Shown here: positions 1,810-64,000 of the stretch, one piece after another
How positions within the stretch are numbered: position 1 is the first letter of the stretch
Layout: each line of letters begins with the position of its first letter
Source of the DNA: Collybia mongolica
Lineage: Eukaryota; Basidiomycota; Agaricomycetes; Agaricales; Clitocybaceae
Direction of reading: 5' to 3'
NCBI GenBank assembly: GCA_013420905.1
Contig: JAAXNY010000003.1
Span: forward strand, 372,001-436,000
Length of the DNA stretch: 64,000 bases
Notes under the pieces: model-generated
Databases searched by the model: none
What the model was told of the DNA's origin: nothing
The model's input: only the letters and a program-made list of their open reading frames with translations
Program-made: the position numbers and the translations under genes

Positions 1810-3027
1810 TGATAGGGCCCGAAATTGTTTGCACTTGTAAAGTCGACAAGTAAGGCTATTAGTATCATTTCTAATAACCAAGTAAACGGTAATAAAGGAT
1901 TAGAGTCGAGCTCCAAGACGGCTAATCAGAGTGAACTAGTCTAATGGATAATACACTATCAGTACAGAGGACTATGAGTACGGTCTATTATTAGTCCTAT
2001 TCACCATGCCCGGTTACAACCTCGGTGTCTTAGTTCATAAGTAACCGTTGTAGTATGATATCATTAGTCCGGGGATCATCATTAATAGGAGAAGTAATTA
2101 TAAATTCGGGACTTGCACAACCCGATCCTAGTCAGGGGTACTTGGTGTTAACTACCGGAAGCGGCGGGACCCCGTGAATAGCAACCGGGACAATCAGGAG
2201 GAGTAAATGACAGTGCCGCGCTGTTTTAAATAACGGAGCACGCGGTCGCGACTTGATAAGAGTTTAGCCAGCTCTTTCAATATTTGATAAGTAACCAGTA
2301 AACGGCATAATTGGCACGCATGGCGCGTGCGCCAAGTTGTAGAGGACGCATCAGCATTGAATACAGATCCTTGGCGCACGGGAGTGCGGTTCCATGTAAA
2401 ATTTACAATTCCGTATGATATTTAGTTTGTACACTATAAATAGACTGTAGATAAGTAGCGCTAAGGCAAGGAATCTTGCCCCCACTTCGCGCGACTATAG
2501 AGTATACAAATCACATTTGTTAAAACACTATTGCGTGTCCGAATTAAGGATCAGATTGCTTCAACGTGTCTTGATTGGAATTGATTGGAGAACCACAGAA
2601 TTAAAGAAACTTAGTTCACTTGGAACTTAGTACCGTATTGTCCGTTGGAATTACTAGGCACTTGGCCTAAGTGCACTTGGCACTGTATTGTTTGATAAGT
2701 CGCTTGGACTTATAGATCCGCTTGGGATCGCTAATAATTGAACGTACACTTGGTACTCAGTCTATTGGATCGAGAGATTTTATAAATATACCTAGCAGGT
2801 TTTTGAACCTGTGTTGAAGCTTTTGTCTAAATCGAACCCGTTGAGAGATCATTGGAAAGGGCTTTGGCTAGTACTATTCAAAGCTTAGTGCTTCTAAGCA
2901 CTTGAACCCGAACTCAAAACAGGCGATTCCTACTGTTCGTGTGTTGATTGTTAGGTTTGGTGTGTGTGTGTGTGAAGGATTACATTACATAGCATCAGCG
3001 CACTTATAGCCCAGGAGCCCCCTTTCA
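1810..3027 (+). mobile_element. solo LTR (1218 bp) inserted in the integrase gene
   Basis: The segment starts TGATAGGGCCC and ends GCCCCCTTTCA, with TG...CA termini, and is flanked by ACGT at 1806-1809 and 3028-3031. It is the reverse complement of the LTRs at 41058-42256, 58992-59672 and 59673-60888, so it belongs to the Ty3-like family that fills the right side of the window. No internal sequence is present, so LTR-LTR recombination removed the rest. A TATAAATA box lies at 2435-2442, consistent with a sense promoter, and several CACTTGG-type motifs occur at about 2600-2760. Confidence 0.93.
2435..2442 (+). promoter_or_regulatory. TATA box in the solo LTR
   Basis: TATAAATA occurs in the LTR sense orientation. 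The corresponding position is kept in the LTR at 41058-42256 in reverse complement and slightly altered in the copy at 59673-60888. It is the best candidate core promoter of this LTR family. The transcription start is not determined. Confidence 0.5.
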
Positions 3028-4081
3028 ACGTCCTTTCTCATTTGTCACAGCAGATTTTGTCACAGACTTACCAGAAAACAATGGAAAAGACAGCCTCATG
3101 GTCATGGTAGATCATGGCCTTACGAAGGGGGTAATTTCTATCCCTTGTACCAAAACAATTGACGCTTTAGGAACGGCAAATCTTTACCTGGAACACGTTT
3201 ACAAGAGATTTGGACTACCTGATACGTTTTTATCAGACCAAGGTCCTCAATTCGCAGCAAAAGTCTTCAAAGAACTAGGAAAACTCCTCGGAATAAAGCT
3301 CGTAATAAGCACGGCGTATCATCCACAAACAGATGGGGAAACAGAAAGATTAAATCAAGAACTCGAAATCCACTTTCGCATGTTCTGTCAGAACAATCCA
3401 GCGATATGGAAGGATCTTAATCCAATAGCAGAATTCGCGCATAATCAAAGAACGCATTCCACAACAAAGAAATCCCCATTCTTCCTCATGATGGGATACG
3501 AACCACAAGCAATTCCATCAGCATTCCAGAAAACAAACGTTCCAAGTGTAGAACAACGGATGATCGAATTAAATAGAGCATGAGAGGAAGCTATAGCGGT
3601 GCATGATCTGGCAAGAAGAAAAGTAGCGGAAAGAACGACACGAGGCTTCAATCCATTCAAACGAGGAGAACATGTCTGGTTAGAAGGAACAAATCTTAGA
3701 ATCCCTTATCCATCAAGGAAACTAGCACCAAAAAGAGAAGGACCTTTCGAAATTCAAGAAGTCCTTGGACCAGTGACATACAAATTGAAACTTCCATCTC
3801 AATGGAGAATTCACCCCATGTTTCATGCATCTCTTCTCACACCGTATAAGGAAACCAATACTCATGGACCTAACTTCTTAGAACCCTCACCGGATCTTGT
3901 GAACCAAGAAGAAGAATACGAAGTAGAAGGGATTATAAATCACCGACAACGAGGCCGAGGCTTCCAATACCTTGTAAAGTGGAAAGATTACTCATCTGCA
4001 CACAACACGTGGGAACCTGAAAAACACTTAAAAAGAGCTCAAACGATACTTCAATCCTACCAGAAGCTACATCGCCTCTAA
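3028..4081 (+). pseudogene. pol: integrase core and C-terminal chromodomain
   Basis: After the LTR the integrase core resumes. The three acidic catalytic residues are visible: D in TADFVTDLP, D in SDQGPQF and E in HPQTDGETERLNQE. A TGA at 3581-3583 replaces an expected arginine codon, and the same frame continues at 3584. The C-terminus (about 3900-4060) is a chromodomain, with EYEVEGIINHR, QYLVKWKDY and NTWEPEKHL. In chromoviruses such a domain directs integration to modified histones. The frame ends at 4081. The DDE triad and the chromodomain aromatic residues look intact, so only the stop codon and the LTR insertion are obviously disabling. Confidence 0.9.
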
Positions 4082-12531: not shown

Positions 12532-15131
12532 CAGCCAAACCTGCCATAACCCATGGCCCTCGGTGGAAGCCAAAAAGTATGGGTTATCACAGAGTATGGG
12601 TTTTGGGAGGGGTCATTATAGGGTCAGTTAAACAGCTTGTATTTGGTCATTATACATAGTTCTAAGGTATTTGCATGGTGTATATATGATTTCTAAGTAA
12701 AATAATTGGTAATAGTTGTAGGTTTAAGTGAGTTGAGCCTGTCGAGGCATGTTTGACGGCCAAAACTTGCGAGGAGCCCCTCCAACTTGCGCGCAAATGG
12801 CTCATCAAGATCTGCAACGTATTTTTGGATTGTCAAGGCAGCAGATAATGCCTCATGACGAGACAGCTTCTTCTCTGCAGAGTCATTATCTGAGTTGTCA
12901 TCCCCATTGATCACTGCCTGCTGCGCTGCGTTGCGCCTTTCTAACACCGCCTTGTAGATGTCCTCGTCTGCCACTTCACTGTAAGTATTGTCCTTGTTGA
13001 CTGGGTTGAGCAACTCAGTAAAATCCATCTGATTACCCCGCTGCAGGACACCAATTTCCTCAAGATGATCTAGGGAAGCAGAAACATTGTTCTCTGCAGC
13101 AGTGACTGGGTCAGCAGGTTTGTTTAGAAGGGATGATATGCGGATAGCTGGAGCATCGGGAGTGGAGTTAGGATTGAGAAGACTGTCGGGGAGAATGCCA
13201 GACTTCCGCCAACAATTCCGGATTGTGGTTGTGTCGACCTCTTTCCACGTGATATCAGCCATTCGCATTGATTCGAGTATGTTAATGTTGTAAATGTCAG
13301 CAGGAGGGATGTTGCTGTCATAGCAATCAATAGTGCGATCCATGAAACGGGCGCGGTAATGTGCTTTGAAGCAGCGAATGATTCCTGCATCAGCGGGTTG
13401 AACATGAGCTGTCAGATTAGGGGAGAAGTTCTCAACCACAATGTTTGTGAGATCCTCAGGTGGGTTGTGTGCACTAAAATTGTCCTGGAACAGAAGGATC
13501 TTGCATCCCTCACGTCGCAACTTTGCATCCCAGTCATGAAGCCATTCTTGGTAAAGGACTGTGGTCATCCAGGCCTTTGCATTACTTCGATAGTAGAAGC
13601 CAAGCTGCACCCCTGATTTTCGTTGAAATGGTTGTGGTTGCTCGAATTTCCCAATGATGATGGGTCTGAGTTTTTCTGTACCAGTGGCATTGATTGTGAA
13701 TGCATATGTCAATTGCTTCTTGTCGCCCTTCACTCCAGAAGATGGTTTGTTCATCAGGCCACGGTCTGGAGGCATTCTGAAGGAGCCATAGTAAGTACAC
13801 AAAATTATGTCAGTGAAGGAATCCAACTCACGCCCAAAAAAGGCCAGTCTCATCCATATTGAAGATGTCCTTCAAACGAAATCCATGCCTCCTGATAAGC
13901 TCGCAAAGTCTCTCGCGCTCGCACTCAATATCCTCGGGGTTTGCAGAACCGGCCTCACCATGCCGCTTGTAGTTCCGCAAACCACAACGTTTCTTTAAGG
14001 CTTCCAGCCACCCTTCACTCAAGGCAAGCCTTTCATCGTCTGGCATGCCCACAAGATTGGCAAAGCGGTTCCATTTCTGCCTGAGAATCTCCCCACTGAC
14101 ATGAATATTATCTGACATGGCCTTCGTAACCCACAGCTCCAGCATCTTGTTGACTTCTGGATGCTCTGTCTGCTTGACGTGCTTTGCATTCCCAGGTTGT
14201 CCCCTTCCAAGCACCTCTGCATATTGCTTACAGTACTTGTTCTCGTCCTTCAGCCATGCTGAAATGGTGGGTTGCTTGAGGCAAAGGTTTGGGTATGCTT
14301 CATTCCAATGCAAAGCAGTCTTTCCTTGGCTGGACTTCTGTGCATGATGCCAGTCAAGAATTTCAATCCGTTGCTTCAATGTCGCATTCTCTTTCTTTGT
14401 GAAAACTGGTGCTTTCTTCCCCTTCTCTGCCTGTGGCACTATCTTCTGAGTCTCGGGGCCTAAATCAGAGAAATGTGAGATCCATGTCAAGTTCACACTA
14501 CAAATTTCACAAACATTTTCTCTTATTGCCCACAGCTTTTTTAACACCTCCTCCCAGCTCCATAAGCTTGTAAACCACTGCCTTCTGCCTTGACTCCAGC
14601 TGTCCCAGCCCACACTCATAGTCAGAAGCATTCTTGAGAAGATCAATGACAGCATCTTTGTCAACGAGATTGGCCTCATTGTCAAGCCAGGTTTCATCAT
14701 CACTTGAAATCTGCTCGTGGTTGGACATCTTGGCAAGTAGCTCATCCTTGCGTGATTTTATTTGTGCCTTGAGTCAGGACACACCAGCTTTGAGTACTTC
14801 AAGAGGCTTTCTTGACATTGACTCAGGGCACGGAATTTGTTGAGGTGTCAGGCTTAATAGGCAGGGTACCATTATTTAGGCTTTTTTCCCTTGAGTGGTT
14901 GGGGTCATGCAGCCCTCCTTGATGTGTTGACAAAATATTGATGTCATTGAGACCAGAAATTACATAAATTTTAGTACATTATGGGTTATGAAACCCCCCC
15001 AGGACCTATGGGTTATGGAGTATGGCAGGGAGCCCGAATTTCCCTGCGAACCAACTTGGTGGAAGCCCCAAACCCATGGGTTATTACAGAGTATGGGTTA
15101 TGACAAGTATGGGTTAGGACAGGGTTGACTG
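12532..15131 (-). mobile_element. pogo/Fot1-type DNA transposon (2600 bp), apparently intact
   Basis: The ends are inverted (CAGCCAAACCTGCCATAACC on the left, CAGTCAACCCTGTCCTAACC read from the right) and flanked by TA at 12530-12531 and 15132-15133. The unoccupied site, with a single TA, is present in X copy 3 near 49437 (reverse strand) and, slightly changed, near 46325. Repeated TATGGGTTA/TAACCCATA motifs lie just inside both ends and may bind the transposase. One complete transposase gene fills the interior. Confidence 0.93.
12693..14728 (-). CDS. pogo/Fot1-type transposase (CENP-B-like DNA binding, DDE_1 nuclease)
   Basis: The gene has three exons (14728-14515, 14459-13832, 13776-12693) and two 55-nt introns: 14514-14460 (GTTTGT...TTTAG) and 13831-13777 (GTGAGT...TTCAG). 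Spliced, it gives 641 codons with no stop. The N-terminal half contains a helix-turn-helix segment (LCLKQPTISAWLKDE) and a Tc5/CENP-B-type DNA-binding region. The nuclease follows, with the first aspartate in FNMDETGLFW, the second in LFQDNFSAH and the third in QPADAGIIRCFK, giving a DDD triad. It should cut and paste the surrounding element at TA sites in the nucleus. The start at MSNHEQISSDD is the first ATG of exon 1. Intact reading frame, splice sites and ends suggest recent arrival and possible activity. Confidence 0.9.
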
Positions 15132-36047: not shown

Positions 36048-37655
36048 GCTCAAAAAACTGTCCCAATGTTTGGTCATTTTATAATGATTTACTTATAACA
36101 GAGTACTGGGGATTAATATCATTCTGAGAAAAATATATATAATACTACACCATATTAGCTTTGAAATGAGCCCTTACTTTCCTTATTTGAATAAAAACTC
36201 ATTTCATAACAAATTGAACAAAATAATTACTCATTGGGACAGTTTTTTGACCTATGCTTAATTTTGGCAAGATCTTTACTGCAGCAAGCTTTAACATCAT
36301 GTGATGTATTGTGGGAACAATAAACAAAGTCATGTGACCATGTTGATATAAATTCAACATGTTTCCATCATTACAATCATTCTTTCCTTCCCCCATCATC
36401 CCATGAGACCTACATCTTCTACCCAATGCCTTTCTGTGATCTCCCTTCTTCAAGAAGGCTATACCTTGCGTCAGATCCAGTCCAAAACCACTCTGGGAAA
36501 GTCTACCATTGGGAGAATCAAGAAGGAACTGGATATGGACAAGGAAAACCACAGGGGGGGACATCCTTCTAAGCTCTCTCCTGGTGACAAATGGTCAATT
36601 ATTCAACAAATCACCACTGGAAGGCTTGATAATGCTGTAGAGGCCACCCATTTCATCAACCAAACTCTTCCCAACCCTGTCACACCCCAAACAGTCAGGA
36701 ATGCACTCAAAAAGAATGACTTTTGTAGTGTTGTCAAGAGAAAATGTCCTCTTCTCAAAAAGGCTCATTGACTGCAACATCTTCAATGGGCAAGATACCA
36801 TGAAAACTGGACAGTGGAGGATTGGAAAAGGATCTTATGGTCAGATGAGGTCAAAATCAACAGGATTGGGTCAGATGGAAGGACTTATACTTGGAAGAAG
36901 AAGGGAGAACCACTTTCTGACAGAACCACCACTCCTACTGTCAAACATGGAGGAGGAAATAATCTTATGGTGTGGGGTTGTATGGGGTGGAATGGAGTAG
37001 GAGTGCTTACAGAGGTCCAGGGGATTATGAATGCAGACCAATACTGCCAGATTTTGGATGGGGGAGTAGTGGAAAGCTTTGAAAAGCTGGAGATTCCAGA
37101 GGGAGAGAGGATGTTTCAGCAGGACAATGACCCCAAACATGCATCCAACAAGGCAACCAAGTGGTTTGAAGACAACAACATTGATGTTATGGTCTGGCCA
37201 GCACAATCCCCTGACATCAACCCCATTGAACATCTCTGGGTAGTGTTGAAGAAGGCACTTAAGAAATACCCAACAGCCCCCAAAGGAGTACATGAGTTGT
37301 GGGATAGGGTGGTAGTGGAATGGAATGGGTTTCCACCAGAAACATGCCAGACACTTATAGAAAGCATGCCTAGAAGGGTTCAAGCAGTTATTAAGGCAAA
37401 AGGTGGTCATACCAAGTATTAATTGTGTAAATAGAGACTTTGGAGATGTAGGTCAAAAAACTGTCCCAATGAGTAATTATTTTGTTCAATTTGTTATGAA
37501 ATGAGTTTTTATTCAAATGAGAAAAGTAGGGGCTCATTTCAAAGCTAATATAGTGTAATATTATATATATTTTTCTCAGAATGATATTAATCTCCAGTAC
37601 TCTGTTATAAGTAAATCATTATACAATGACCAAACATTGGGACAGTTTTTTGACC
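36048..37655 (+). mobile_element. Tc1-type transposon with 205-bp inverted ends, in the tnp2 gene
   Basis: The element is flanked by TA (36046-36047 and 37656-37657). The two ends, 36048-36252 and 37451-37655, are 205-bp inverted copies. Each of these is itself bounded by inverted words (TCAAAAAACTGTCCCAAT outside, its complement inside) and by a TA on its inner side. So each end looks like a complete small MITE. A transposase gene lies between. Confidence 0.9.
36403..37422 (+). pseudogene. Tc1-type transposase (DD34E), one stop codon
   Basis: A 339-aa frame starts MRPTSSTQCLSVISLL. It has a paired-like N-terminal helix-turn-helix region (GYTLRQIQSKTTLGKSTIGR), then the catalytic aspartates in LWSDEVKINRIG and QQDNDPKHASNKA and the glutamate in SPDINPIEHLW, spaced as DD34E. 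A single TGA at 36769-36771 lies between KKAH and LQHLQWARYHENW, where CGA (arginine) would be expected. Apart from this the frame is complete. The element could move only if supplied in trans. Confidence 0.9.
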
Positions 37656-41012: not shown

Positions 41013-41057
41013 AGTTTTCAGTGATGCTGATGCACTTTTTGACTTTTTTTTTCCCAG

Positions 41058-42256
41058 TGAAAGGGGGCTCCTGGGCTATAAGTGTGCTGATGCTATGTAA
41101 TGTAATCTCTTACACACACACACACCAAACCTAACAATCAACACACGAACAGTAGGAATCGCCTGTTTTGAGTTCAGGTTCAAGTGCTTAGAAGCACTAA
41201 GCTTTGAATAGTACTAGCCAAAGCTCTTTCCAATGATCTCTCAACGGGTTTGAGTCAGACAAAGCTTCAACACAAGTTTAAAACTTGCTAGGTATAGTTG
41301 TAATATCTCTCGATCCAATAGACTGAGTACCAAGTGTACGTTCAATTATTAATGATCCCAAGCAACTTATTAAATAAACAGTGCCAAGTGCACTAAGGCC
41401 AAGTGCCTAGTAATTCCAACAGACAATGCGGTACTAAGTTCCAAGTGAACTAAGACTCTTCAATTCTTTGATTTCTTCAAACAATTCCAATCAAGACAAC
41501 TTTGAAGCAATCTGAGCCTTAATTCAGGCACGCAATAGTGTTTAACAAATGTGATTTGTATACTCTATAGTAGTGTGAAGTGGGGGCAAGATTCCTTGCC
41601 TTTGTGCTACTCACCTACAGTCTATTTATAGTGTACAAACTAAATATCATATGGAATTGTAAATTTTATACAGAACTGTGCTCCCCTGTGCCAAGGATCT
41701 GTATTTAATGCTGACGCATCCTCTACAACTTGGCACGCACGCCATACGTGCCAATTATGCCGTTTACTGGTTACTTATCAAATATTGAAAGAGCTGGCTA
41801 AACTCTTATCAAGTCCTGACCTGCGCGCTTTGTTATTTAAAACAGCGTGGCGCTGTCATTTACTTCTCCTGATCATCCCGGTTGTTATTTACGGTGTCCC
41901 ATCTCTTCCAGTAGTTAACACCAAGTGCCCCTGACTAGGATTGGGTTGTGCAAGTCCTGAATTTACAATTACTTCTCCTATTAATGATGATCCCTGGACT
42001 AATGATATCATACTACAATGGTTACTTATGAACTAAGATACCGAGGTTGTAACCAGGCATGGTGAATAGGACTAATAATAGACCGTACTCATAGTCCTCT
42101 GTACTGATAGTGTATTATCCATTAGACTAGTTCACTCTGATTAGCCATCTTGGAGCTCGACTCTAATCCTTTATTACTGTTTACTTGGTTATTAGAAATG
42201 ATACTAATAGCCTTACTTGTTGACTTTATAAGTGCAAACAATTTTGGGCCCTATCA
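41058..42256 (-). repeat. 3' LTR of element B (1199 bp)
   Basis: In plus orientation it starts TGAAAGGGGGCTCC and ends GGGCCCTATCA. Almost identical to the partial LTR at 58992-59672 over the shared 680 bp, which supports the two being the ends of one element. Compared with the LTR at 59673-60888 many CpGs are changed to TpG or CpA. Confidence 0.85.
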
Positions 42257-42269
42257 TCTCCCCCACACC
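42257..42269 (-). other. polypurine tract of element B
   Basis: On the minus strand GGTGTGGGGGAGA directly precedes the LTR start TGATAG. The same tract, with one change, precedes the LTR of element A at 60889-60901. This fixes the orientation of both elements as minus. Confidence 0.7.
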
Positions 42270-42706
42270 ACAAATGTAGACTGTCCTCAGTCTCTCTTTG
42301 CCAGCATGTTAGTCCAATACTTTGGGTCTGCACATGTCTAATCATTCAGTACAAGGTCACAATGGTTCCGCTTTTAGACAGGTAGGCACGCAATGTTGGG
42401 ATTGAGCCCAGAGGTCTACTTTCCATCAGGATCATGACAGTTATATACGTCTCCTGAGAGAGTACTTGACATTCGGACATCGCTTTACAGATATTTCAGT
42501 CATCTGAGCATTTCTCTCGTTATGTTTCTGACACTTCAGCAAGAGATTGGTGCTCCTGCTTGTCTTTTAGAGCTTTGCAATGCAGGGTTGTGCGTTTTAA
42601 AAAGCTCTTGCTTTTGCTAAGTTTTAGACAATTTGGACTTTACAGCCCATTTCTAAATTTCTTTGCTATTTGCATCGCTCAAACACTCCAACTCCTTTAA
42701 ACAAAT

Positions 42707-44667
42707 ATGTCTTCCACTTCCACTTCTGCCATGGCTCGTGCTCTGCACTTGCCTTCTGCACTGTCCCTTTTGTTTTCCACCGTGATTTTACCAACTGAGG
42801 GCTGTTCCCCTGCTATGGTCTATGTGGACCAGCCCATCCCTTTGTTTTCCAATCTCCTTGAAGATGCCGAGGGCGATGTCTTCGTTGCCATGGAGCAAGG
42901 GTGGATCATTATGGCTGAGGAGCTTGTGCCCCATATGGACCATCAGGGCCCCCTTGACCTTGATGATTTAATTGACTTCGTCAATCACTGCTCCTTGCTC
43001 ATCATATGCCCATCTTTTACTTGTTAAAACCTTTTGCTAAATTACCTATTTACTGGTCTCAGGACACCATCACTGGCGTGGTCCATGGCGTGTGCTTTCA
43101 CTGCCGTACCCGGCCATTCTCCTCCTGCGCACGCTTCACCTCCAAGTGATGCGCATCCCAGTTGACACGCACAAAGCCTCGTGGTCTTCCTGGCGTACGG
43201 TCATATCAGCTGACCTAGGAAACAATTCCATTGTTCTGGTAAATGGCTTGTTTACTTCTTTACTCTGTCTGTCCTTGTCATACTGACTACTTTTTACTTT
43301 AGGGTCAGGCTCCCACTGTGGAGCAAGTTCTGGACCAGGTGGGGTCGCGCTACAAGCATGACAATGGTGACAGTATCTTTCAAGATACTTTCCTTGTACC
43401 CTCTCGCATGGTTGGCGCGCCATGCCATTACCATCAGTACTGGGACAGTTGGTCCGCCACGCCCTTGCTGGCGGGCTCCCTGGTTTTGGTACCCACGGTT
43501 CATTGATCACTACTTTTATTACTTTTCTTCTGTTGTTGACTTATTTCGATAGCCCCTTAAGTGGAAGCATAATGCAGGGTCCAAGGGCAAAGGCCATGTG
43601 GTTCCCCAGGTATACCATCCTTTACTTCACAAGCTTTACATTATTCCTGACTTGATTTCAAAATTCTAGTCTGACATGTAACGTGCCCAGGGGGCTGGCA
43701 GTGATTCTGTGTTGTGTCCCACGGAGGCAGGTCCCATATGTCTCCTTTCTCTTTTAAAAACTCATTTACTTTTACTTATTTTTATCTCTTTAGTCCTCTG
43801 GGCAGCCACTGGTTAAGGTTGAGGTCCCTGAGCTTCGGCTCTTTAATGAAGAGATTGCACACCAGTTGGCTCAAGAGGGATTTGTGGAGTTGTTGCCTCC
43901 CGCGGCCCCTTCTCCTCGTCGGTCACATAAGACCACTCATTCTAGGGATGGGGTTCAGGCGACACGCCGTAAGCACGTGCTGGTTCCCAATTGGGAGCCT
44001 ATGCCGCTACAGTCCCCTATTACCTCCCTGCTGGCTGACCTTGTGCCTCGGTGCTCTACTGTATGTTTATTACTACTTTATTTCTTGTTACTGATCATTC
44101 TTACTAGGTTGGCTATCCTTGTACAATGTGTGCCACCCGCAGCGACATTGAGTGCTCCTTCAACGGTTGGGGTAAACCATGTGTTGAATGTGCTACCACC
44201 AAGAAGGGGAAGTGCAGCTTCAGTCTCACTCCCCAGAAGCGCACTAGGCTCCGGGAGGATCTGGGGCCTATGCTTGGTGCGGGCATTTCCAGTAAGCCAT
44301 TTTCTTTCTGTCTTTTTGTTTACTAAATTTTTTACTTATTCTACTAGCAGTTGCTGAAGCATATGCTCAGCTGGACGATGCGGACACTCTTGCCGCAGAG
44401 GTTATTCAGGCTGCTAACCGCGCGCTTGAAATGCGTGACTCCTTGTTGGCACGCATAGTCGGCACCATTGGTAGGTTATATGAGGAGGAAGGCCTGGAGG
44501 GCCTTCAAAACCTCTTGCTGACTATGCCAGCCACGGAGAGCGCTCTCCTCTTCTACGCGGAGTTTCAGAACCTCCCTTGGCTGCCCTTGGAGGACGAATC
44601 AGAGGTTGATGATGGTTCTTCATTGTCAACCTCCTCTTTGTCCACACCTGATAGCGAGGAGGAGTAG
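42707..44667 (+). pseudogene. antisense zinc-cluster-like gene, copy B (decayed)
   Basis: This is the paralog of 61341-63286 with the same eight-exon layout. The first exon (MSSTSTSAMARALHLP...) is open, but the intron 1 donor at 43004 is AT and not GT, a CpG-type change. A one-base deletion near 43100 shifts exon 2. The zinc-cluster-like exon (44126-44300) and the last exon (to 44667) are well kept. It lies antisense to element B, between its 3' LTR and where pol should be. Because the protein motifs survived, the decay seems to postdate a period of selection. Confidence 0.8.
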
Positions 44668-45257
44668 CCACGCTGCGCCCCCCCATCTACGTTTTATTTT
44701 TATTTTTATCTACTTGTGTTTTCCCAGGCCCTAGTGCCCTTTTATTACTGATACCTAAATTCCCCCGCCTTTCATTGGGCTTCAATTTTATTAATTGAAG
44801 TCCAATACATGTTTTACATACAGTCCCCTGGACTATAAACAATTGGTTTAACCGTTGTTCTATTGTCTTCATAAGAAAGCTTCTGTCCTTGCACCGGCTA
44901 CTTAAATTATAAATAGTACAGTTTAACTCTGGTGCAATTCTCTCAATCATTAAGACTGTGGTGCAATCACTGACTTTTTATAGACAATCTATTTTAATCC
45001 TTGTAACCTCGGTAGGTTTTTCCAAATCAATTTTGCTTATACCCATCTCCCCCTCAACACTGAATACAACTGTCCCAGTTGTAATGCGGACACTGCCGTG
45101 CTCCACATGAATTTTTACGGAGCTCCTTTTTCAATTGGGCTCAGCATTTCAATTAGGCACACATCTCGGACCTGTTCAATTGAAATGTATAGATTTTTCT
45201 GGGGTAGAACGCGCACAACAAATGAGAGGCTGGGTAGCACTTTTCTAGTCATAGAGG

Positions 45258-45267
45258 TATAAAAAGG
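45258..45267 (+). promoter_or_regulatory. TATA box of the second antisense gene, copy B
   Basis: TATAAAAAGG lies 106 bp before the ATG at 45364. The same box and spacing occur in element A (63881 and 63987). Confidence 0.65.
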
Positions 45268-45363
45268 GCATTGGCTGCACTATTTTTCCAAAGACCTTGC
45301 CAGACTCTATTATACTCTCTTTACAACGTTCTGTTTCGAAAAACCAATTTCCTCTGCATTATT

Positions 45364-45775
45364 ATGACTAGCCTCCCCAACTATCAAGACATCGAGAACT
45401 TCAAGATGGTCCAAGCTCAGTGGAACACCTTTCAAGCTCGTTTATCAATGGACACCCTTGTTGAACAAAGGGTCAGTGTCTGGAAGTTAGGCAAAACCGC
45501 GGTACACTTTTTACCAATTAAACTTTTAACACCGTTATCATAACCAACTTTTACAATTTACAGCTACTCCTGACTGAGTCCAAGATGGTTTTGACGGAGC
45601 GGTCCTGGCAGAATGTTATCTTTGGCGTCCGTAAGGCATTCCAGGGACTACAACATGTATACCCCAAGTTACTTCAAGAGCCTGTCTACCATAACATTGT
45701 GACTCTTACTGCCGCTATTCACCGTCACCATGAAAAGGTCCGCACTGAGCACCTCTCTCAAACCGCAGTGCATGC
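45364..45775 (+). pseudogene. second antisense gene, copy B, truncated
   Basis: The gene starts MTSLPNYQDIENFKMVQAQW. Exon 1 (45364-45501) ends phase 0 at a GTACAC donor, the intron ends TTTACAG at 45563, and exon 2 continues LLLTESKMVLTERSWQNVIF to about EKVRTEHLSQTA. It is then cut by inverted X sequence near 45780. The protein is helix-rich with no domain I know. Only its first five codons are in the window for element A (63987-64000), where it is presumably complete further right. Confidence 0.6.
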
Positions 45776-45789
45776 TTTTTACCTTATCT

Positions 45790-46684
45790 TGTACTTTCCT
45801 GTTCTTAAACTATGGTTTTCTGGTTATGAGTTCTTTATCAACCCAGTTTTCGGGCAGAAAGGTGATTCATTCATTCATTCATATTTCAACACCGCGGGAA
45901 AATATTTCCATAATGGGATTTTTCTTCTCTTATGGCTTTTTACAGCATTTCTCCACAAATACAAAGTATTGTGACATAATTTGCATGTTTTTGGGATGCT
46001 TACATAATGCTTTTGATGATGCCATCAAAATTATGCATATCTAATATTTCAAAGCGTCGCATTTCAAAATTTATTTTGTGATTTTCTCCATAACCAGTAA
46101 AGCTATTAACTTTGTTTTTATATGTTTGGAATGTACAAACATGGCTCTACAATTTCCTTGTTGAGCACATTTTTCCCATGGTCTATTTTGAGCAAAATAT
46201 TAGAAATGTCCAGATTCAGCTAGTTTTGAAGGTCTGTGTATTATGCCAAAGATGAACAAACATCTTATAACAACAATAACCCTTACCAAACATGACCCTT
46301 GTGGGAAATTATCCTAAACATTGGAAAAATCAACAACTACTACTATATTTACCTGAAATACAAAGAGGATTGAATTCTCTATTTATTGACATATGTCACA
46401 TGATCTATTCCATCACATAAGCATACCAAATACATGACAACAATCTGAATGCTCATTTAGTGTCCATGATCCTGGGAAAAGTAAGTTCTGATGGTTTTTG
46501 TGCACAGGCATTGCTTGTTTGCTTGGTAACATTTTCCCATGGTCACATGACCTCTATAAACTATCATCTACATTGTTTCTAGTCATTTACAACTTCCTGA
46601 ATGTGGAATGGACTTATTTCTCCTAAGAAAAGAAATAAAGAATGAGTACCTGCCACACAGTGTGTTGGCCCACTCCACCCAAGT
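45790..46684 (+). repeat. X segment forming an inverted repeat with 49030-49990
   Basis: Forward match to X copy 1 positions about 12024-12530 and 15134-15530, without the pogo element. It is an inverted copy of 49030-49990 in X copy 3. Its left end abuts the truncated second antisense gene. Confidence 0.75.
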
Positions 46685-56419: not shown

Positions 56420-58830
56420 CTATGGTAGCGCGTCATGCCGTAAGTAGTTATCATCAAGTTCCCAGTCCCCTCCAAAGGGTAAGGCATCTTCCTCATCTGT
56501 TCCATTTATTTGCAAGTTAGCGTCCCTTTGGGTGAGGGATTTACGTCTGGCAGTTACAATATTCTTTATCCCATCTCTAATGGTTTTTGACAAGCCCATT
56601 AACTCTCCTGTGGTCAATGTGATAGGGTTGTCTAACACTTTAGCAATTATATTGCCACCTTTTAATTTTACTTCTATTGGGGACTTAGTTTCATAAGTCG
56701 GACCATGCTTGGTGTTAAAATTAGGTAGCAGATCAACTGGTTCAGGGTTGCGTTCCGTTCTCCAGGGTATGTAGGGTACTGCGGGCACATCGATGTAGGG
56801 TAATTCTTTTCGTACTGGAGACTTTACTGATGGTTCAACAATTTTTACTTTCTTTTTCCTAGGAGGCAGTGCTACCAGCTCCTCTTTGCTACTATCCTGA
56901 GTACTCTCCGAATCATTACTTTCTTGACGACTATTTCTATTTTTACTACAGTCCTCAGGCTGTCTCTTGGAACGCAATCTAGTTGTAGGTCTAGCATGTT
57001 CCTTAGCCTCCTTCATCGGACCTAATTGAAACCCGACTCTTTAACCTTGTTTTGGTTATTGAGCTCTGCTACCTGCCCTAATAAAGTACTCATTTGTGCT
57101 TGTAAGGCTACTATGTCAGGATTTGGCGCGCTCTTTGCAGTAGGATTATAGTTATTATTTATATATTCCTGTTTCTGCATCTGAGGCGGTACTGGCAACG
57201 CAGTTTGCACACTCTGTTGTCCTAACATTTATTGCGCTTGAAATTGGGCCATTTGTGCCATTATGGCTTTCAAGATTCCAATGTCATTACTATTGTCTAC
57301 TGCATTATGTGACTGATGCATAACTGACAATACTCCTGGAGCAGGTCCTTCCGTGACATCTCCATAATAAAGGGCCGCTACCTTCTTTGAATGGAAGTGT
57401 TCCACTTTATCTTTCAACGATACCGTTTCTGGTTCTCTTGGAATATATGATCCGTCTGGTAAACATACTCCTCCATTTGCATTGGTTTTTATTTTTCCTT
57501 CTTCAAAATGTTTCTGTTTCTTGGGACAGGCCATTATGAAGTGTCCAGGTGTAAAACAGTAGTGACATTTATACGCATTTGGTCTTTGCGGTTGTCCTTC
57601 TTTAGGCTTTCCGTACTGATTCTGATACTGATGCTGCTGGGGCGTGCTATTCATGGCATGGTTCTGAACAGTTGCTTGTTGAAGCGCTTTCATTACATCC
57701 TCAAATCCACTCCTCGTATTCTTCTCATTTACTTGGAGACGGTCTAACAAATTAACTATTTGTTGTTTTATTTCATCCATCTCTACTTTGATCTTGGGTG
57801 CTGCTGCTGCTGTTACAGACATTATAAAAGATCTATTTGTGTCCGGAATATTCATGTTGGCTACACCTTCAGAAATGCTGATTGCAGTTGCTATAACTTC
57901 CTCCAGATTGTACTGATCCCCTTTTCATTGTGTGAGCACGGCGGCTTCGGCAATAGTATTAGGATCTGCTTGGTTGTTTGTAGCAACGGCCTGTCCTGCC
58001 TGTGTGGCATTAGACTGATTATTCCCTAGCAGGGTTAGCCTTCCTTGTACTTGGGATCTGAAGACTTCATCTAGACATCCCAAGAACGTGGTAACTAATT
58101 CTTGGTTAGAGATAATAGGTGGCCTAACTCCCAAGAGTTTAATAGATTCTGCTTTGAATTCACGCTTTAGCTTTTTCAGCGTGGCCTCATCGGTTACTCC
58201 AATACATGGGTTGGCACGACACACAGCTTCTAACTTGGCTACTGATCCTTCTACTTGATCGAGTGCTTCCGGATAACTAGAGATCAACTCTGTCTTGAAA
58301 TCCGTCCAAGTGCCTGTTTTATAGTGGTCTAATGCCCTCCACTCATCCTCTGATTGTAGGTCTGCGTATCTTCCTAACATTAACTTCTTTTCTTCATTAT
58401 TTGTAATGTTACACTCCTTCCATAGGACCTCCATTTGCTCCAGAAACTGGATTAAACCTGTGGGCTCTTTTCCTTTGAATACTGGTGCATCACGGATGCC
58501 TGGTTGGGGCATATATTTACAAGGGGGTTCAGTCATGATTACTGAATGGTTCTGATTAGCTAACGAGTTCGGGTTTGCTACTGGGTTTACTATGGACAAT
58601 CTTCTGCGCGCTACTGGTTTACTAGTAGTCAATATGTTTCCTAAGGACTCTGGGGTTCTAAACACTTGCCTTGGTCCTGAAGATCCAAAGGCTGGTTGTG
58701 AAGACCCTCATGTGCGCACTTGTCTAGGAGGTGGTAACAGCTCTGTTACTCCAGCATTTTGCAAATTTTTAGTCTTCCGTGTTTTTGTAGCTACTTGTCT
58801 TGCAAGTGGCTGATTAGTTAGTCTGTTTGA
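56420..58830 (-). pseudogene. element B: gag with nucleocapsid knuckle
   Basis: Capsid-like sequence from about 58830 to 57928 includes FKGKEPTGLIQFLEQMEVLW and DFKTELISSYPEALDQ, common to Ty3 Gag. The knuckle CHYCFTPGHFIMAC (C-x2-C-x4-H-x4-C) follows at about 57560. Stops interrupt it at 58708-58710 and 57925-57927 (both TGA where CGA fits) and at 57229-57231 (TAA). Frame changes occur near 57020 and 56418. The region 56420-57016 is a basic linker towards the protease. Confidence 0.8.
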
Positions 58831-58991: not shown

Positions 58992-59672
58992 TGAAAGGGG
59001 GCTCCTGGGCTATAAGTGTGCTGATGCTATGTAATGTAATCTCTTACACACACACACACCAAACCTAACAATCAACACACGAACAGTAGGAATCGCCTGT
59101 TTTGAGTTCAGGTTCAAGTGCTTAGAAGCACTAAGCTTTGAATAGTACTAGCCAAAGCTCTTTCCAATGATCTCTCAACGGGTTTGAGTCAGACAAAGCT
59201 TCAACACAAGTTTAAAACTTGCTAGGTATAGTTGTAATATCTCTCGATCCAATAGACTGAGTACCAAGTGTACGTTCAATTATTAATGATCCCAAGCAAC
59301 TTATTAAATAAACAGTGCCAAGTGCACTAAGGCCAAGTGCCTAGTAATTCCAACAGACAATGCGGTACTAAGTTCCAAGTGAACTAAGACTCTTCAATTC
59401 TTTGATTTCTTCAAACAATTCCAATCAAGACAACTTTGAAGCAATCTGAGCCTTAATTCAGGCACGCAATAGTGTTTAACAAATGTGATTTGTATACTCT
59501 ATAGTAGTGTGAAGTGGGGGCAAGATTCCTTGCCTTTGCGCTACTCACCTACAGTCTATCTATAGTGTACAAACTAAATATCATACGGAATTGTAAATTT
59601 TATACAGAACTGTGCTCCCCTGTGCCAAGGATCTGTATTTAATGCTGACGCATCCTCTATGACTTGGCGCGC
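58992..59672 (-). repeat. 5' LTR of element B, cut by element A
   Basis: Contains the 3' 681 bp of the LTR in the minus orientation. It stops at GCGC, where the LTR of element A begins. The rest should lie beyond the window. Confidence 0.8.
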
Positions 59673-60888
59673 TGAAAGGGGGCTCCTGGGCTATAAGTGC
59701 GCTGATGCTATGAAATGTAATCCCTTACACACACACACCAAACTTAACAATCAACACACGAACAGTAGGAATTGCCTGTTTTGAGTTCGGGTTCAAGTGC
59801 TTAGAAGCACTAAGCTTTGAATAGTACTAGCCAAAGCCCTTTTCAATGATCTCCCAACGGGTTTGATTCAGACAAAAGCTTCAACACAGGTTTATAAACC
59901 TGCTAGGTATATTTATAATATTTCTCGATCCAATAGACTGGGTACCAAGTGTACGTTCAATTATTAATGATCCCAAGCGGATCTATAAGTCCAAGCGACT
60001 TATCAAACAATACAGTGCCAAGTGCACTAAGGCCAAGTGCCTAGTAATTCCAACGGACAATACGGTACTAAGTTCCAAGTGAACTAAGTTTCTTTAATTC
60101 TGTGGTTCTCCAATCAATTCCAATCAAGACACGTTGAAGCAATCTGATCCTTAATTCGGGCATGCAATAGTGTTTTAACAAATGTGATTTGTATACTCTA
60201 TAGTCGCGCGAAGTGGGGGCAAGATTCCTTGCCTTAGCGCTACTCATCTACAGTCTATTTATAATGTACAAACTAAATATCATATGGAATTGTAAATTTT
60301 ACACGGAACCGCGCTCCCGCGCACCAAGAATCTGTATTCAATACTGACGCGTCTACTACAACTTGGCGCGCGCGCCATGCGTGCCAATTATGTCGTTTAC
60401 TGGTTACTTATCAAATATTGAAAGAGCTGGCTAAACTCTTATCAAGTCCCGACCGCGCGCTCTGTTATTTAAAACAGCGCGGCACTGTCGTTTACTCCTC
60501 CTGATTGTCCTGGTTGCTATTCACGGTGTCCCGTCACTTCCGGTAGTTAACACCAAGTACCCCTGCCTAGGATCGGGTTGTGCAAGTCCCGAATTTACAA
60601 TTACTTCTCCTATTAATGATGATCCCCGGACTAATGATATCATACTACAACGGTTACTTATGAACTAAGACACCGAGGTTGTAACCGGGCATGGTGAATA
60701 GGACTAATAATAGACCGTACTCATAGTCCTCTGTACTGATAGTGTATTATCCATTAGACCAGTTCACTCTGATTAGCCGTCTCGGAGCTCGACTCTAATC
60801 CTTTATTACCGCTTACTTGGTTATTAGAAATGACACTAATAGCCTTACTTGTTGACTTTATAAGTGCAAACAATTTCGGGCCCTATCA
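59673..60888 (-). repeat. 3' LTR of element A (1216 bp)
   Basis: Complete LTR with TG...CA ends. CpG-rich compared with the LTRs of element B. The polypurine tract GGTATGGGGGAGA lies to its right on the minus strand (60889-60901). Confidence 0.88.
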
Positions 60889-61340
60889 TCTCCCCCATAC
60901 CACAAATGTAGACTGTCCTCAGTCTCTCTTTGCCGGCAGGTTGGTCCAATACTTCGGGTCTGCACGCGTCTAATCTTTCAGTACAATGTTACAACGGTTC
61001 CGCTTTTAGACAGGTAGGCGCGCGATGTTGGGATCGAGCCCAGAGGTTTACTTCCCATCAGGATCGTGACAGCTATATACGTCTCCTGAGAGAGTACTTG
61101 ACATTCGGACATCGCTTTACAGATATTTCAGTCATCTGGACATTTTTCTCGTTATGTTTCTGACACTTCAGCAAGAGATCGGTACTCCTGTTTGTTCTTT
61201 AGAGCTTCGCAATGCAGGGTTGTGCGTTTTTAAAAAGCTCGCGTCCTTGCTAAGTTTTAGACAATTTGGACTTTATAGCCCATTTCTAAATCTCTTTGCT
61301 ATCTGCATCGCTCAAACGCCCCGACTCTTTTCAAACAGAA
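60889..61340. other. element A, region between LTR and antisense gene
   Basis: Non-coding leader of the antisense gene, shared with 42257-42706. It carries pyrimidine-rich stretches typical of basidiomycete start sites, but no clear TATA box. Confidence 0.45.
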
Positions 61341-63286
61341 ATGTCTTCCACTTCCACTTCCGCCATGGCTCGTGCTCTGCGCTCGCCTTCCGCGCTGTCT
61401 CTCCCGCTCTCTGCCGCGATTCTGCCGACTGAGGGCCGTTCCCCCACCATGGTCTATGTGGACCAGCCGATCCCTTCCTTCCCTGACCTCCTCGAAGATG
61501 CCGAGGGCGACGTCTTCGTCGCTATGGAGCAAGGGTGGATTATCATGGCCGAGGAGCTCGCGCCCCGTATGGACCATCAGGGTCCGCTTGACCTTGACGA
61601 CTTGATCGACTTTGTCGATCACTGCTCCATGCTCATCGTACGCCCATCTTTTACTTGTTAATTCCTTTTACTTATTTACTGGTCTCAGGATGCCATCACT
61701 GGCATGGTCCGTGGCGCGCGTTTCTCGCTGCCATATCCGGCTATCCTCCTCCTGCGCGCGCTTCACCTTCAAGTGATGCGCATCCCAGTTGACGCGCGCG
61801 ATGCTTCGTGGTCGTCCTGGCGTACGGTCATATCGACTGACCTGGGCGCCAACTCCATTCTTCTGGTAAATAACTTGTTTACTTCTTTACTCTGCCTCCC
61901 TTTGTCAAGCTGACTACCTTTTTCTTTTAGGGCCAGGCTCCCACAGTGGAGCAAGTCCTTGACCAGGTGGGGTCGCGCTTCGAGCGCGACAATGGTGATA
62001 GTATCTTTCGGGATACTTTCCTCGTCCCGCCTCGCATGGTTGGCGCGCCGCGCCGTTACCATCAGTACCAGGACAATTGGTCCGCCGCGCCCTTGCCGGC
62101 GCGCTCCCCGGTCTTGGTACCCGCGGTTCGTTTATTACTGCCTTTTTATTACTTTTCTTCGGTAGTTGACTTATTTTAATAGCCCCTCAAGCGGAAGCGT
62201 AATGCTGGGTCCAAGGGAAAAGGCCGTGCGGTTCCCCAGGTATATCCTTTACTTTACGAGTTTCACATTATTGCTGACTTGATTTCACAATTCTAGTCCG
62301 ACATGTCGCGCGCCCAGGGGACTGGCAGTGCTTCCGCGCTGCGTCCCTCGGAAGCAGGCCCGGTATGTCTCTTTCTGAAGTCATTTACGTTCACTCATCT
62401 TTATCTCCTTAGTCCTCTGGGCAGCCGCCGGTGAAGGTTGAAGTCCCTGAGCTTCAGCTCTTCGATGATGAGGTCGCACGCCAGTTGGCTCAAGAGGGGT
62501 TCGCGGAGTTGTTGCCTCCCGCGGCCCCTTCTCCTCGTCAGTCGCGTAAGACCACCCGCTCTAGGGATAGGGCTCAGGCGACACACCGTAAGCACGCGCT
62601 GGTTCCCAACCGGGAGCTGACGCCGCTCCAGTCCCCTATTACCTCCCTGCTGGCTGACCTTGCGCCGCGGCGCTCTTCCGTATGTTTATTACTACTTTAT
62701 TTCTTGTTACTGATCATTTTTACTAGGTGGGCTATCCTTGCACGATGTGCGCCACCCGCGGCGACATTGAGTGCACCTTCAACGGTTGGGGTAAACCGTG
62801 CGTGGAATGCGCCACCGCCAAGAAGGGGAAGTGCAGCTTCAGCCTCACTCCCCAGAAGCGCGCTAGGCTCCGTGAGGATCTGGGGCCCATGCTTGGTGCG
62901 GGCATTTCTAGTAAGCCATCTTCTTTCCGTCTTTTTGTTTACTACTGATTTTACTTATTCTACTAGCGGTTGCTGAAGCCTATGCTCAGCTCGGCGACGC
63001 GGACACCCTTGCCGCGGAGGTCATTCAGGCCGCTAACCGCGCGCTTGAAATGCGCGACTCCTTGTTGGCGCGCATTGTTGGCACCATTGGTAGGTTGTAC
63101 GAGGAGGAAGGCCTGGAGGGCCTTCAAAACCTCTTGCTGACTACGCCAGCCACGGAGAGCGCCCTCCTCTTCTACGCGGACTTCCAGAATCTCCCTTGGC
63201 CGCCCTTGGAGGAAGAAGCAGAGGTTGATGACGGTTCTTCGTCGTCAAGTTCCTCTTCGTCCGTGCCTGACAGCGAGGAGGAGTAG
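61341..63286 (+). CDS. antisense zinc-cluster-like gene of element A (intact, 8 exons)
   Basis: Exons: 61341-61637, 61689-61865, 61931-62125, 62183-62239, 62297-62362, 62413-62679, 62727-62910 and 62967-63286. The seven introns are 47-65 nt, all GT-AG, and all but the last are phase 0. The product is 520 aa. The N-terminal part is acidic (LLEDAEGDVFVAMEQGW). Exon 4 encodes PLKRKRNAGSKGKGRA, a likely nuclear localisation signal. Exon 7 has six cysteines at about 358, 361, 369, 378, 381 and 389 (C-x2-C-x7-C-x8-C-x2-C-x7-C), close to a fungal Zn2Cys6 cluster. A helix-rich region and an acidic serine tail (VPDSEEE) end it. It lies antisense to the retroelement. A nuclear DNA- or chromatin-binding role is inferred; no family is identified. 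Confidence 0.75.
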
Positions 63287-63880
63287 CCGCGCCGCGCCCC
63301 CCCCCCCTATTTTTTTTTTTTTATCTACTTGTGTTTTCCCGGGCCCCTGGCCCTTTTATTACTGCTACCTAAGTTCCCCCGCCTTTCGTTGGGCTTCAAT
63401 TCTTTAATTGAAGTCCAACACATGTCTTATATACAGTCCCTCGGACTATAAACAATGCTATTGATTTGGCTGTGGTTCTATTGTCTTCATAAGAAAGCTT
63501 CCGCCCTTGCCCCGGCTACTTAAGTTATAAATAGTACGGTTTAATTCTGGTGCAATTCTCTCGATCATTAAAAACCGTGGCGCGATCACTGACTTTTTAT
63601 AGACAATCTATTTCAATCCTTGTAACCTTGGTAGGTTTTTCCAATTCGATTTTGCTTATACCCATCTCCCCCTCAACACTGATAACAACTGTCCCAGTTG
63701 TCATGCGGACACTGCCGCACTCCACATGAATTTTTACGGAGCTCCTTTTTTTTTAATTGGGCCCAGCATTTCAATTAGGCACGCGTCTCGGACCTGTTCA
63801 GTTGAAATGTATAGATTTTTCTGGGGATAGAACGCGCGCAACGAATGAGAGACTGGGTAGCACTTCTCTAGTCGTAGAGG
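63287..63880. other. intergenic region between the two antisense genes
   Basis: Starts with long C and T runs, followed by the hairpin GGGCTTCAATTC/TTAATTGAAGTCC near 63390-63416, which may help 3' end formation. Matches 44668-45257 in element B. Confidence 0.4.
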
Positions 63881-63890
63881 TATAAAAAGG
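63881..63890 (+). promoter_or_regulatory. TATA box of the second antisense gene, element A
   Basis: TATAAAAAGG, 106 bp before the ATG at 63987, as in element B. Confidence 0.65.
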
Positions 63891-63986
63891 GCACTGGCTG
63901 TGCTTTTTGTCCCAAGACATCGCCCGACTCTATTATACTCTCTTTACAACGTTCTGGTTCGAAGAATCAATTTCCTCTGCATCATT

Positions 63987-64000
63987 ATGACTAGCCCCCC
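63987..64000 (+). CDS. second antisense gene, element A, start only
   Basis: ATG followed by ACTAGCCCCCC gives M-T-S-P, matching the start of the gene at 45364. The rest is outside the window. Confidence 0.5.

Follow-up and report, generated by a model that had tools for sequence, protein, structure and literature searches.

The plant LTR retrotransposons Grande, RIRE2, and Retand are described as having antisense accessory ORFs in the interval from pol to the 3′ LTR (PMC7264820, PMC11963269). According to these sources, gene23 of Grande has an upstream promoter of its own that drives its transcription, and its product is nuclear, TRP28 of Retand is predicted to bind DNA, and the function of the plant antisense ORFs is called unknown; the word "intron" appears nowhere in the main text of either paper. 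In the fungus Botrytis cinerea, the element Boty has an antisense gene termed brtn (Zhao et al. 2011, as cited in PMC8365987 and PMC7264820), and the retrovirus HTLV-1 carries near its 3′ LTR the antisense gene HBZ, with transcripts that are reported to be spliced (PMC1459196). The initial annotation of the locus described here had pointed to retroviruses as the parallel; the precedent also includes plant and fungal LTR retrotransposons.

The element described here, from Collybia mongolica, shares with Grande, RIRE2, and Retand the position and orientation of the antisense ORFs and their presence in most copies, as these are given in PMC7264820 and PMC11963269. Unlike the plant elements, it has two antisense genes with seven and probably four spliceosomal introns, which bear no Pfam relation, and its host is a fungus. 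Boty, likewise fungal and of the Gypsy type, also has an extra antisense gene, but it resides in an ascomycete, and one such gene is named for it in the sources cited. HBZ is a bZIP gene of an animal retrovirus, whereas two genes are present here, one of them zinc-cluster-like, and neither has a Pfam bZIP match. Neither this family nor any intron-rich two-gene antisense module was noticed in the open-access literature searched, nor was a multi-intron antisense gene pair shown to be selected by an exon/intron contrast. Antisense accessory ORFs at this position are known, and it is the two-gene, intron-rich form that looks new.

Anatomy of the element

The window, that is, the whole stretch of 64,000 nucleotides analyzed here (positions 372001–436000 of contig C3), ends inside a full-length 14.2-kb LTR retrotransposon, element B, which is of the Ty3/Gypsy type as judged by domain order and Pfam matches (Table 1). 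In its own 5′ to 3′ direction, element B is composed of the 5′ LTR, a primer site, gag, protease, RT/RNaseH/integrase, two antisense genes, a polypurine tract (PPT), and the 3′ LTR. Its ORFs for gag, protease, and pol all lie on the minus strand, the RT/RNaseH/integrase ORF being 1347 aa long. The putative primer site, called from its position and its TGG start, adjoins the right LTR and the PPT adjoins the left LTR, so the sense strand of the element is the minus strand. The LTRs form a near-identical TG...CA pair (99.4% identity, 8 mismatches in 1218 compared columns), and the element is flanked by a 4-bp target duplication. In terms of pol domains, Integrase_H2C2 and both RNaseH families score above the Pfam cut-off; rve, RVT_1, and the gag-asp protease fall below it, yet in the Gypsy order of protease, RT, RNaseH, and integrase. 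The chromodomain that marks chromoviruses gave no match in pol of element B at E ≤ 1.

The initial annotation had placed the antisense block next to the 3′ LTR and its purine tract, on the strand opposite to gag and protease, and the succession of LTR, PPT, and block in the window, with gag–pol on the minus strand, agrees with that description. Since gag, pol, the primer site, and the second LTR are found on C3 past the end of the window, the block is the pol-to-3′ LTR part of a complete element. Its location in this interval, on the strand opposite to gag–pol, is that of the antisense ORFs designated aORF-3R.

The LTR of element B also contains four CCAAGTG words within 140 bp (window 59945–60081), where about 0.2 would be expected per LTR-sized stretch; these words are possibly a regulatory array.

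Table 1. Features of elements A and B and of an interrupted Gypsy element (window positions unless marked C3)
Feature	Position	Strand	Remarks
Chromodomain-bearing Gypsy element interrupted at 1810–3027	RT/RNaseH 349–1593, integrase 2993–3580, chromodomain 3584–4078		
Decayed target duplication CCAG, element A	41054–41057		opposite end (L046) is CTGG
3′ LTR, element A	41058–42256	−	
Antisense block, element A	42257–45824	+	stops in gene 1; gene 2 truncated near 45.8 kb by a subsequent insertion
gag and protease-region ORFs, element A	56420–58707	−	products clearly the same as those of the L031 ORFs
5′ LTR part, element A	58992 to about 59668	−	remainder at C3:445900–446420, divided by element B
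Element B	59673–64000, onward to C3:445899		sense is minus strand
Target-site duplication GCGC, element B	59669–59672 (left copy); C3:445900–445903 (right copy)		
3′ LTR, element B	59673–60888	−	1216 bp, TG...CA ends
PPT, element B	60889–60899	−	sense TATGGGGGAGA, adjoins 3′ LTR
Gene 1	61341–63286	+	ATG 61341, stop 63284–63286, eight exons, 520 aa, no internal stop
Gene 1 introns (7)	61638–61688, 61866–61930, 62126–62182, 62240–62296, 62363–62412, 62680–62726, 62911–62966	+	
Gene 1 exon 7	62727–62910	+	zinc-cluster-like motif CX2CX7CX8CX2CX7C
TATA box of gene 2	63881–63889	+	TATAAAAAG
Gene 2	63987 (ATG) to about 65364 (C3:437364), beyond window end	+	most likely 4 introns, 383 aa
Gene 2 introns	64125–64185, 64390–64451, 64785–64836, 64937–64987	+	
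5′ LTR, element B (partner of 59673–60888)	C3:444684–445899	−	

The antisense genes and their products

An eight-exon gene followed by a second gene with its own TATA box was predicted in the initial annotation, and both are present. The prediction that gene 1 splices to 520 aa without a stop holds for the copy at 60889–64000, which is the intact gene 1 of the window; it does not hold for the copy at 42.3–45.8 kb, in which the projected gene model meets four internal stops and two non-GT donors.

The gene 1 protein has a stretch of basic residues (PLKRKRNAGSKGKG), a motif of six cysteines, and a tail that is acidic and rich in serine. The zinc-cluster-like motif that had been annotated in this protein is conserved, its six cysteines being present in 32 of 33 aligned copies. 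Zn2Cys6 clusters of the GAL4 type have the spacing CX2CX6CX5-12CX2CX6-8C. The gene 1 motif exceeds this spacing by one residue and has no Pfam match; it may work like a Zn2Cys6 zinc cluster. At E ≤ 1, Pfam returned nothing for gene 1 or gene 2, including bZIP (as in HBZ) and PF04195 (as in Retand TRP28), and NCBIfam gave no match for two gene-1 exons. Protein searches with the whole of gene 1 (7995 candidates sharing most words scored) and with its residues 352–480 (553 candidates) yielded no match at E ≤ 0.001, and the PDB sequence search yielded no meaningful solved relative of gene 1, the lone match at E 0.91 being taken as chance.

The TATA box of gene 2 is identical in 33 of 33 aligned copies. 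On C3, gene 2 and pol end tail to tail, about 145 bp apart. A fifth gene-2 intron, a 69-bp GT-AG stretch at 64554–64622 that would leave 360 aa, was considered and set aside. The 383-aa model is preferred because this stretch has a constant length in 30 of 30 loci and because most of its residues are kept in a Collybia nuda protein, so that the stretch is probably coding. By eye, the gene 2 protein is conserved in its N-terminal part, basic in the middle, and acidic in its tail.

The Collybia nuda protein P0001, named hypothetical protein in its source, matches gene 2 over its full length with 63% identity. Of the four exon joins, three are crossed by the alignment without a gap, and a two-residue gap lies beside the second. 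AlphaFold modeling of P0001 alone gave a mean pLDDT of 40, too low for the model to be usable, and two NCBIfam matches of P0001 far below cut-off were taken as meaningless.

Copies across the genome

The block is part of a mobile, multi-copy family in the 46-Mb genome searched. With the block DNA as query, at least 42 matches were obtained (40 of 145 candidates scored), with copies up to 99.8% identical. The zinc-motif exon of gene 1 has 110 matches (110 of 110 candidates scored) with identities of 68–100%, a few of which are partial or contain stops, and no genome match under 68% identity was seen at E ≤ 1. An 18-base word spanning the LTR/PPT junction occurs 107 times genome-wide, and the zinc exon lies downstream on the same strand, at most 12 kb away, at 87 of 100 listed junctions. 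Exact primer-site/LTR junctions number 89, and gene 1 or gene 2 is located within 20 kb of 70 of them. The module is therefore present in most family copies, as is characteristic of aORF-3R.

These counts, together with the complete element B, bear out the initial view that an intron-bearing antisense block is integral to elements with gag–pol. Absence of the block from full-length elements, its occurrence without LTRs as an ordinary host gene pair, and a consistent separation of gag from the block had been named as outcomes contrary to that view; none was found, with the reservation that 13 of the 100 listed PPT junctions have no zinc exon in the adjoining 12 kb and neither gene is listed within 20 kb of 19 of the 89 primer-site copies. 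Such copies may be truncated or interrupted.

The association also extends along the element. A listed last exon of gene 2 is found 1.9–2.9 kb from 78 of the 110 zinc exons (94 gene-2 places, with 113 of 277 candidates scored), and a primer site is found at about full-element distance from 45 of the 110. The last exon of gene 2 is where all 33 pol matches scored among 174 candidates start, and 32 of them cover the whole query.

Matching 4-bp duplications flank 10 of 12 LTR pairs compared. The LTRs of these ten pairs differ at 1–8 positions, which identifies the elements as young. The other two pairs, with 28 mismatches at L008 and 19 at L021, have no matching duplication and may be recombined or mispaired; they still carry CG on both sides. 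The left flank of L021 shows an element copy that has landed within gene 1 of another. The LTR and the initial 94 bases of the block are missing from L012, and the diverged copy L043, which matched the later part of gene 2 only, was left out of the alignment.

Selection on both genes and retention of introns

An open reading frame is kept in 28 of 30 young loci for gene 1 (520 aa in 27, 516 aa in one) and in 26 of the 30 for gene 2. GT-AG boundaries are present at every intron of these loci, 330 of 330 with the four-intron model of gene 2 (210 in gene 1, 120 in gene 2). The youth of the copies makes an open frame weak proof by itself, and it is the comparisons between subfamilies that are telling.

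The proposal in the initial annotation that copies be compared by dN/dS proved informative: among five young representatives, values are 0.14–0.31 in nine of ten gene-1 pairs and 0.11–0.34 in all ten gene-2 pairs, so that 19 of 20 comparisons fall within 0.11–0.34. The remaining gene-1 pair, L013/L028, has a dN/dS of 0.55 based on few changes. Pairs with diverged copies gave 0.20–0.40. Three comparisons of pol gave 0.08, 0.12, and 0.11; the L047 pol in this set has one internal stop, and L048, a diverged copy, was dropped because its pol alignment reached only 51%.

Variable sites at codon positions 1, 2, and 3 amount to 2.9, 3.3, and 13.4% in gene 1 and to 4.2, 2.1, and 8.3% in gene 2, with 5.5% in gene-1 introns and 11.9% in gene-2 introns. 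Since gene-1 introns vary less than third positions, substitutions alone do not show that introns evolve faster; indels do. In the 30 loci, no exon indel is found in more than a single copy, whereas many copies share indels in introns and non-coding parts. Gene 1 and gene 2 evolve under protein-level selection. The exon/intron structure serves as an internal control, in which exons keep frame and amino acids and introns take indels, and with this control it can be told from the DNA alone that the antisense proteins matter to the replicating element.

Introns in the sense orientation of a retroelement are lost when its RNA is reverse transcribed. From established retrotransposition, we infer that the antisense position lets the introns of gene 1 and gene 2 escape this removal. 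Ordinary genes with several introns can be kept by a retroelement through many copies, provided that they lie antisense.

Silent divergence between two young subfamilies (L001 and L019) is uneven along the element and highest in gene 1, above all in its exon 1: it reaches 0.32 in that exon and 0.11 over gene 1, as against 0.019 for gene 2 and 0.028 for pol. The simplest reading is that the gene-1 part has been exchanged between lineages by recombination.

Integration target

CG occupies the two central letters of the 4-bp target (NCGN) at 27 of 27 readable young 3′ LTR flanks. The readable flanks come from 27 of the 30 young loci, L012, L018, and L027 having no match to the exact LTR-end word, and all 27 differ from one another. 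CpG has a frequency of 4.7% in the same flanks and 2.2% in the window, where base composition would predict 4.6%. The whole genome has 365 exact LTR ends, of which 89 adjoin a primer site; CG is found at 166 of the other 276. Among the remaining 110, flanks were read for the two old copies A and L044, both CA, which fits CpG decay at these diverged copies.

This target is reminiscent of that of the Drosophila errantiviruses (gypsy, ZAM, and Idefix groups), which have palindromic targets, CGCG in one group (PMC5408687). Errantiviruses have AGT/AnT ends, whereas the family of element B has TG/CA ends and the looser target NCGN. In the account of PMC5408687, sequence-specific integration is called exclusive to errantiviruses and their derivatives, and complementarity between enzyme and target, together with the LTR ends, is discussed as the basis of their targeting.

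Proposed role of the antisense module and alternatives

We propose a recently active, autonomous-looking Ty3/Gypsy family with an expressed antisense two-gene module between pol and the 3′ LTR that encodes nuclear regulatory proteins, an account that we consider reasonably likely as a whole. The element would be copied through its sense RNA, in which antisense introns go unrecognized, so that all of them would survive. After integration, the host would transcribe the module using promoters that the element itself supplies, the TATA box in the case of gene 2 and the region adjoining the 3′ LTR in that of gene 1, and the transcripts would be spliced and translated into two nuclear proteins. The gene 1 protein would most likely bind DNA and regulate the element's own transcription or chromatin state, and the gene 2 protein would most likely act together with it. 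Both products are probably nuclear regulators of the element, with composition and motif as the indications of nuclear location and DNA binding.

The two genes could instead be a captured host gene pair, carried as passengers that have no role for the element. They are host-like in having introns and at least one promoter of their own, but a passenger pair is hard to reconcile with dN/dS well below 1 between element subfamilies or with the constant place of the module in many elements. Selection across lineages that exist only inside elements, which would speak against capture, is largely seen, and the zinc exon, with no match below 68% identity (E ≤ 1), shows no separate host parent at this sensitivity; we regard this origin as quite unlikely. 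The module might also act mainly as antisense RNA, with convergent transcription giving dsRNA that tunes silencing and with proteins that matter little. The tail-to-tail arrangement of gene 2 and pol would suit such a role, which is proposed for plant elements in PMC7264820, but the constraint falls on codons, frame, and splice sites, and we consider a mainly RNA-level function unlikely. That the copies arose by segmental duplication of a chromosomal block merely containing an LTR beside a gene pair is scarcely conceivable: the high identity of block copies would be expected of it, but the matching short duplications at most LTR pairs contradict it, as do the differing flanks of the young loci.

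A further question is whether the gene 1 protein helps to choose the integration site by bringing the integration complex to CpG-containing DNA. GAL4-type zinc clusters bind CGG-containing sites, and the central CG of young flanks and of many LTR ends genome-wide would fit such a role. The integrase itself may set the exact target letters, however, and Drosophila errantiviruses have palindromic targets such as CGCG (PMC5408687), so that we hold a targeting role of gene 1 to be doubtful. A more elaborate form, in which a spliced antisense two-protein system reads CpG DNA, the zinc-cluster protein guiding NCGN integration and preventing silencing of the LTR with the gene 2 protein as its partner, in a CpG-depleted and presumably CpG-methylating host genome, strikes us as rather improbable. 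If it were true, a CpG-reading accessory system would survive many rounds of transposition by hiding its introns on the antisense strand. The NCGN target makes directly testable how the element meets CpG methylation.

Element A and nested insertions

The initial annotation treated the older copy of the block as a second element separate from the gag-bearing one. This separation is not upheld: the block at 42.3–45.8 kb and the gag at 56–59 kb (ORFs at 56.4–58.7 kb) are two parts of one older element, A, which has been split apart by nested insertions, and element B is inserted within its 5′ LTR. The 3′ LTR of element A agrees with the first piece of its 5′ LTR in 673 of 679 aligned columns (4 gap columns) and with most of the length of the second piece in 403 of 420 (14 gap columns). 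The outer flanks, CCAG and CTGG, fit a CCGG duplication in which CpG was lost on different strands, as expected.

Elsewhere in the window, an LTR of the same family (1810–3027, 95.8% identical) interrupts pol of a different Gypsy element, beside a CG, and DDE transposase ORFs are located at 12696–13871 and 36772–37419 (DDE_1 and DDE_3).
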